From: Nanobdellati archaeon
GTDB taxonomy: Archaea > EX4484-52 > GLR71
Reading direction: 5' to 3'
DNA length: 64,000 nt
NCBI GenBank assembly: GCA_019429005.1
Contig: JAHYJR010000005.1
Coordinates: forward strand, 1-64,000
Shown here: piece after piece, positions 4,519-44,719 of the stretch
How positions within the stretch are numbered: the first letter of the stretch is position 1
How the letters are laid out: each line of letters starts with the position of its first letter
The notes under the pieces: generated by a model
The model's database searches: none
What the model was told of the DNA's origin: nothing
The model's input: only the letters and a program-made list of their open reading frames with translations
Made by a program: the position numbers and the translations under genes

Positions 4519-4642
4519 GCAGGGGAAGGGATTCGAACCCTCGAAGAACCTACGTTCACAGGATCTTAAGTCCTGCGCCTTTTGTCGAAAACAATCTAAA
4601 AAAGCTCAGAATGTCTCTTTAACCAGGCTAGGCGACCCCTGC
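4519..4642 (-). tRNA. tRNA-Leu (UAA) with a 38-nt insert in the D-loop
   Basis: The ends form a perfect 7-bp acceptor stem (GCAGGGG with CCCCTGC). The anticodon stem CAGGA/TCCTG closes the loop CTTAAGA, giving anticodon UAA. The variable arm is long (GAAC-GTAG-GTTC) and the T-loop is TTCGAAT, so the molecule is a class II tRNA-Leu. The CCA end is not encoded; the discriminator base is A. Removal of 38 bases after GGTTAAAG restores a normal D-arm (GCC...GGC). The gene lies 32 bp after rpoD, so it may be co-transcribed with the ribosomal operon. Confidence 0.93.
4579..4616 (-). other. Putative non-canonical intron in tRNA-Leu D-loop
   Basis: The insert begins after AAAG and itself ends in AAAG, so the exact ends can slide by up to four bases with the same mature product. 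It separates the D-loop from the 3' half of the D-stem. I tested the five possible registers for a bulge-helix-bulge (a 4-bp helix between 3-nt bulges) and none pairs properly. The TTGT...ACAA pairing inside it would form a small hairpin. If it is an intron, it is in a non-standard place with a relaxed splice motif. Confidence 0.6.
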
Positions 4643-7093: not shown

Positions 7094-7204
7094 TGGCGCT
7101 GGGAGAGTGATTCGAACACTCGCGGGCCAAAGGCCCACAGGATTTCATGAAATATACTAAATATCTCTCAAGTCCTGCGCTCTACCAGGCTAAGCCACCC
7201 CAGC
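7094..7204 (-). tRNA. tRNA-Ser (UGA) with canonical intron and encoded CCA
   Basis: The acceptor stem is GCTGGGG with TCCCAGC (one G-U pair), followed by discriminator G and an encoded CCA at 7094-7096. The anticodon stem CAGGA/TCCTG holds C-T-TGA-G plus an intron, giving anticodon UGA. The long variable arm (GGGCC-TTT-GGCCC) and TTCGAAT T-loop fit class II tRNA-Ser. It sits between Trm112 and S13 inside the ribosomal block. CCA is encoded here but not in the tRNA-Leu or tRNA-Ile of this window. Confidence 0.93.
7144..7166 (-). other. Intron of tRNA-Ser at position 37/38
   Basis: This 23-nt intron lies after G37. The 5' exon segment CTTG can pair with CATG near the intron end with one U-U mismatch, leaving 3-nt bulges AGA and AAA. 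This is a slightly relaxed bulge-helix-bulge at the canonical position. The same single-mismatch helix is seen in the tRNA-Ile of this window. Confidence 0.75.
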
Positions 7205-44489: not shown

Positions 44490-44513
44490 TCTTTTTTTTA
44501 AAAATAGTGGACT

Positions 44514-44518
44514 CGATG
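44514..44518 (-). other. tRNA-Ile T-stem (check of boundary)
   Basis: This short stretch lies at the boundary between the acceptor stem and the T-arm of the tRNA. The acceptor 3' strand is at 44509-44515 and T-stem pairs follow at once. It is listed only to fix the end of the gene. Confidence 0.3.
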
Positions 44519-44548
44519 GGATTTGAACCCACGACTTCTGGCTATCTA

Positions 44549-44594
44549 AGACCTGCAGGATATTTCTATCCTTATACGAAACGTGATCATATAA
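44549..44594 (-). other. Intron of tRNA-Ile at position 37/38
   Basis: The approximately 46-nt intron starts after A37 (TATA^TGATC) and ends before A38 (CTTAGAT^A). The exon segment CTTA can pair with TTAG near the 3' splice site (one U-U mismatch), with bulges TAT and ATA, a relaxed bulge-helix-bulge. Inside the intron, GGATA-GAAA-TATCC forms a stable tetraloop hairpin, and CTTATA/TATAAG could form a competing stem. Coordinates are good to a few bases. Confidence 0.6.
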
Positions 44595-44719
44595 GACCAG
44601 CGCTCCAAACCAGCCTGAGCTACGAGTCCATATATATTAAAATATAGGACAACTATTATTTCTCAGTACTATAAGGATTAATACTAATATTTAAAAAGAT
44701 TGTGTTGTGTTGTGTATTT

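Follow-up and report, generated by a model that had tools for sequence, protein, structure and literature searches.

Does a tRNA gene whose D-loop carries 38 surplus nucleotides still serve the cell and, if so, how is the surplus removed? The question is raised by a tRNA-Leu(UAA) gene in the window, by which we mean the whole stretch of 64,000 nucleotides analysed here, from the genome of a small, symbiont-type DPANN archaeon (1.08 Mb in 15 contigs, 93.55% complete). We consider it very likely that this is a functional, single-copy gene with a non-canonical intron in its D-loop, whose slightly relaxed bulge-helix-bulge (BHB) motif is cut by the endonuclease EndA and whose exons are joined by the ligase RtcB.

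Results

An interrupted tRNA-Leu(UAA) gene

ARAGORN calls no tRNA in the whole window, nor in the unspliced gene alone, and the Rfam tRNA model gives a weak partial match to the unspliced gene (17.9 bits). The parts of a leucine tRNA can be read directly from the letters: an acceptor stem GCAGGGG/CCCCTGC, a D-stem GCC/GGC, an anticodon stem CAGGA/TCCTG with the loop CTTAAGA, a long variable arm and a T arm, together with a D-loop that is 38 nucleotides too long (Table 1). After deletion of these 38 nucleotides ARAGORN calls a tRNA-Leu(TAA) with a full 4-bp D-stem and all arms intact, which confirms the insert reported in a preliminary description of this locus as well as the normal tRNA-Leu that was said to result from its removal. 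The shortened D-loop has the same length as that of the intronless tRNA-Leu(UAG) of the same genome. That is, an otherwise intact tRNA is interrupted in its D-loop, outside position 37/38.

Because AAAG stands at both flanks of the insert, the cut could fall in any of five registers, all of which yield the identical mature tRNA-Leu(UAA), whose predicted exon junction reads ...CUGGUUAAAGGCG.... The fold described below prefers the register 4618-4581; the one given in the preliminary description, 4616-4579, is another of the five. The promoter scan that we used is of the sigma-70 type and is not informative for archaea; we infer that the gene is transcribed.

Table 1. Features of the interrupted tRNA-Leu(UAA) gene, in coordinates of the window.
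Feature	Position	Strand	Remarks
tRNA-Leu(UAA) gene including intron	4519-4642	minus	124 nt; anticodon UAA at 4568-4566
5' exon	4619-4642	minus	24 nt by the preferred register; spans the 5' acceptor strand, GCC of the D-stem and the D-loop to GGUUAA; exact cut predicted
Intron	4581-4618	minus	38 nt in the favoured register; equivalents 4620-4583 to 4616-4579
3' exon	4519-4580	minus	GGC of the D-stem, then the anticodon arm, the long variable arm, the T arm and the 3' acceptor strand
Central helix, 5' strand GUU (exon)	4621-4623	minus	pairs with GAC 4586-4584
Central helix, 3' strand GAC (intron 3' end)	4584-4586	minus	GRC in relatives
5' bulge AAA	4618-4620	minus	invariant in 8/8 aligned genes; putative 5' splice site
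AAAA between central helix and D-stem	4580-4583	minus	putative 3' splice site
Intron helix and hairpin cap UCUGAG/UUUAGA	4587-4617	minus	GAGA...UUUC (alignment register) or GAGACA/UGUUUU (MFE)

Introns at the same site in related genomes

We scanned 84,980 species genomes for the interrupted D-arm pattern and obtained seven matching records, all of them MAGs that their depositors labelled archaeal, DPANN, Nanohaloarchaea or Aenigmatarchaeota; the named relatives of our host are MAGs labelled Nanohaloarchaea or Aenigmatarchaeota. Full-length matches with the insert at the identical site are found in G002-G007, which belong to the same family, and likewise in G026, from another family. The interrupted gene is tRNA-Leu(CAA) in G002-G004, G006, G007 and G026, and tRNA-Leu(UAG) in G005. 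Further D-loop introns occur in the tRNA-Leu(CAA) of G023, G027, G029, G033 and G011, and in an isoacceptor of G019 that we read as GAG. In tRNA-Leu(UAA) itself a D-loop intron is present in the more distant G039 and in G011, where it measures about 225 nt and is accompanied by a second intron near 37/38. By exon sequence this G011 gene is the closest of those compared (90.7%). A split tRNA, with the 5' half not nearby, was considered for G011 and rejected in favour of the roughly 225-nt intron within one gene.

In G002, of the same family, a D-loop intron lies in the CAA gene and a T-loop intron in the UAA gene, so that introns have been lost, gained or moved between isoacceptors. The tRNA-Leu(UAA) genes of G002, G003, G004, G006 and G008 have a T-loop intron and no D-loop intron, while the CAA genes of the genus carry the D-loop intron. 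A separate observation concerns the tRNA-Leu(CAA) at G027:C101:8880-9145, which has three apparent introns, in the D-loop, the anticodon loop and the T-loop.

Since the same tRNA-Leu site is interrupted in independently assembled relatives, and since the genome yielded no further tRNA-Leu(UAA), the insert is more than an accident of chance or of assembly.

The fold of the precursor and the length of the intron

According to the preliminary description, no register of the insert gives a clear BHB, and the splice mechanism would be odd. The minimum free energy (MFE) fold of the whole precursor (-44.7 kcal/mol) does not bear this out. It consists, in order, of the exon helix GCCU/AGGC, AAA, GUU/GAC, AAA, a 6-bp intron helix GAGACA/UGUUUU, and an apical hairpin. 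With the relatives included, the helix consensus becomes GUY/GRC, flanked by AAA bulges, and the intron helix is seen to covary. In the alignment of eight sequences the proposed helices are paired in 98.6% of cells, as against 90.3% when shuffled and 44-61% when slid. In the same alignment the intron helix beside the bulge is 96.9% paired, with two-sided changes at three of its four pairs; its register there, GAGA/UUUC, is one base off that of the MFE fold, and the bulge is kept by both. The central helix has three standard pairs, one of them G-U, shows no two-sided change and has its middle pair broken in G004; what speaks for this predicted helix is conservation and wobble pairing.

The comparison of relatives carries the case, for the BHB motif in this one sequence lies within chance: in a shuffle test of the single sequence, about 9% of intron shuffles gave seven of the eight motif pairs in any of the five registers, which is not significant. 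Likewise, when G005 and G026 are folded singly, their MFE structures fail to show the motif in full, and it is the alignment that supports it. Given the BHB-like MFE fold and the compensatory changes in relatives, the RNA substrate is not odd, and we assign to the junctions a relaxed BHB on the strength of fold and covariation together.

We propose the following mechanism. The exon bases GUU, from G19 onward, would pair with GAC at the 3' end of the intron, and two AAA bulges would flank this central helix, one towards the D-stem and the other towards the covarying intron hairpin. An EndA-family endonuclease would cut within both AAA bulges and so set 38 nt free, after which RtcB would join the exons into a standard tRNA-Leu(UAA).

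The same mechanism could instead release 37 nt and leave one more A in the D-loop, since a strict 2+1 cut of both AAA bulges of the MFE fold has one extra A left over. We regard this shorter intron as unlikely. With 38 nucleotides removed, the D-loop is as long as in the other tRNA-Leu of the genome, and only then does ARAGORN find the full 4-bp D-stem. Moreover, an A follows GRC in all eight aligned genes and faces G18. If this invariant G18/A contact is counted as a fourth layer of the central helix, there would be two 3-nt bulges, and 2+1 cutting would give exactly 38 nt.

Other introns in the genome

The tRNA-Ser(GCU) gene of the same genome (G000:C11:68400-68800, reverse strand) has a D-loop intron with a near-strict BHB, whose MFE fold contains a 3-nt 5' bulge, a 4-bp central helix and a 5-bp intron helix, and it has a second intron near 37/38. 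We read by eye T-loop introns in tRNA-Ala(UGC), tRNA-Gly(UCC) and tRNA-Glu(UUC), the last with another intron in the anticodon loop; tRNAs with introns outside 37/38 were in general recognised by eye from weak tRNA matches. ARAGORN reports anticodon-loop introns in several other tRNAs of the genome.

The window also holds, on its minus strand, a tRNA-Ser(UGA) at 7097-7204 and a tRNA-Ile(UAU) at 44508-44629, each with an anticodon-loop intron. On its plus strand, two ORFs of equal length (294 aa; 944-1828 and 2045-2929), with matching nested opposite-strand ORFs at a spacing of 1101 bases, may have arisen by tandem duplication.

The endonuclease and the ligase

The genome encodes an RtcB ligase (4e-176) and one EndA gene, of 187 aa (L039 1474-2037, minus strand; G000:C11). 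This protein has the fold of an EndA alpha subunit: it matches the profile TIGR00324 at 100.7 bits, and its AlphaFold2 model (pLDDT 84.4, pTM 0.83) has as its best structural match the M. jannaschii EndA, 1a79 (Z 22.0, rmsd 2.0, 170 residues). Crenarchaeal catalytic subunits come close behind (Z 20-21), so that the fold alone does not settle the subunit type. Of the Tyr-His-Lys triad, Tyr116 and His133 are kept, as is the preceding Arg, and the position of the Lys (K156 in M. jannaschii, K287 in A. fulgidus, K282 in ARMAN-2) is occupied by Ala164. Every covered sequence of the order has Ala or Ser at this position. In the other archaeal genomes sampled it is mostly Lys; Ala recurs in G050 and G059, two small archaeal genomes with a similar Tyr-His loop. 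That loop is enlarged and rich in Lys (NPYKxGxK), with K124 and K128 invariant in the alignment. An insertion of about four residues lies near the crenarchaea-specific loop (CSL) engineered into 3p1y, and is much shorter than a CSL.

In six genomes of the order that are at least 92% complete we found only one convincing EndA gene each, and no second subunit or fused unit; in several other genomes the same search returned two EndA-like matches. The typing of the endonuclease that the preliminary description called for thus yields a single M. jannaschii-like EndA in which the triad Lys is replaced. The expectation of an odd splice mechanism, which fails for the RNA, may therefore hold for the enzyme, as the one EndA that the genome yielded is without this Lys.

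It is important to ask, then, whether this protein can do the work. Replacement of the triad Lys by Ala abolished cleavage in the ARMAN-2 and A. fulgidus enzymes (PMC12397907), and the M. jannaschii-type alpha4 enzyme has a narrow specificity (PMC6379350). The cuts might consequently be made by an unrecognised subunit or some other nuclease, with the Lys-less protein either inactive or only one component of the enzyme; the gene would still be spliced, though not by this EndA acting alone. We hold this to be quite improbable. Two of the three triad residues, Tyr and His, have been kept, along with the preceding Arg and the entire fold; many EndA-type introns persist in genomes of the order; the invariant loop residues K124 and K128 could substitute for the missing Lys; and each of the six genomes has its one convincing EndA, although the search is able to find two matches elsewhere. 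Cleavage by this EndA, followed by ligation, is thus the reading that we retain. It is possible, and we propose it tentatively, that the order has a new kind of endonuclease, in which a single Lys-less M. jannaschii-like subunit removes relaxed D-loop, T-loop and anticodon-loop introns with K124 or K128 in place of the Lys.

Single copy and function

Searches of the genome for tRNAs recovered leucine genes for UAG, GAG and CAA, the last with an intron at 37/38, besides the interrupted UAA gene. A second, intact tRNA-Leu(UAA), which according to the preliminary description would indicate a pseudogene here, was not found in the 93.55%-complete assembly. TTA is frequent in the 42 long ORFs of the window, where it accounts for 33% of Leu codons and 2.8% of codons overall, and the cell very probably needs the gene.

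Might the gene nevertheless be a pseudogene or a decaying copy? The insert does disrupt the D-arm, and in an assembly of this completeness another copy could be missing. But the gene shows neither of the marks of a tRNA pseudogene, which are degenerate arms and an intact second copy, the latter having been sought in the 93.55% of the genome that is covered; and the site and the ends of the insert are conserved across families. Because this is the only UAA gene found while TTA supplies one third of the Leu codons, we judge decay to be highly improbable. More improbable still is that the insert, which folds by itself as a hairpin, remains part of the mature tRNA and enlarges its D-arm: a long hairpin would then sit beside G18 and G19, the bases in contact with the T-loop, several of the related isoacceptors do without the insert, and it is the junctions rather than the loop that are conserved.

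Discussion

Non-canonical tRNA introns with BHB or relaxed BHB motifs (hBH, HBh') have been described in Thermoproteales and other Crenarchaeota, in Thaumarchaeota, in Nanoarchaeota and in ARMAN (PMC4090602, PMC6379350, PMC8450103), and tRNAscan-SE 2.0 carries crenarchaeal, euryarchaeal and thaumarchaeal intron models (PMC8450103). Introns of the D-loop in particular, with relaxed BHB, are established in Crenarchaeota, Nanoarchaeota and ARMAN (PMC4090602, PMC6379350, PMC4033280). The preliminary description named Thermoproteales as the main group with introns at this site; the host studied here is a DPANN archaeon. The kind of intron is already known; its occurrence in this DPANN lineage is new. 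We found no account of D-loop introns or of a Lys-less EndA in this lineage, in a literature search confined largely to papers outside subscription journals, whose silence is weak evidence on the point.

Like the known non-canonical archaeal introns, the one described here is short, lies in the D-arm of the mature domain, has its junctions in a helix with bulges, and belongs to a lineage with multi-intron tRNA genes. It differs from them in its host order and in a central helix of three standard pairs with an invariant G/A contact.

The unusual part is the enzyme. In the literature, relaxed introns accompany (alpha-beta)2, epsilon2 or korarchaeal EndA with a specific loop (PMC6379350, PMC4033280), and the EndA found here matches none of these types, which are regarded as able to cut relaxed motifs. 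In its length of 187 aa, its best match to 1a79 and its triad Tyr and His it resembles the M. jannaschii (alpha4) type, from which it differs by Ala or Ser at the triad Lys, by a longer Tyr-His loop with invariant Lys, and by the short insertion near the CSL site. With the ARMAN-2 epsilon2 and crenarchaeal (alpha-beta)2 enzymes it has in common a genome rich in relaxed introns and some additional residues close to the CSL site, and with ARMAN-2 also an insertion between Tyr and His. Those enzymes keep the catalytic Lys, which is lost here; the insertion at the CSL site amounts to about four residues, and no second or fused unit was found in the genomes searched. Broad-specificity EndA of the CSL/ASL type is defined by a loop of 11-18 residues with a conserved Lys, plus a beta or fused unit, and any role of the short insertion as such a loop would be hypothetical.

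These results add an order of DPANN archaea to the hosts of D-loop tRNA introns and, more generally, of densely occurring non-canonical tRNA introns. Such genes escape the tRNA finders used here, so that genomes of this kind seem to be without essential tRNAs. The order combines common relaxed introns with only an M. jannaschii-like EndA that is without a residue held to be indispensable, and it thereby offers a natural test case for the idea that the diversity of introns goes with the type of EndA.
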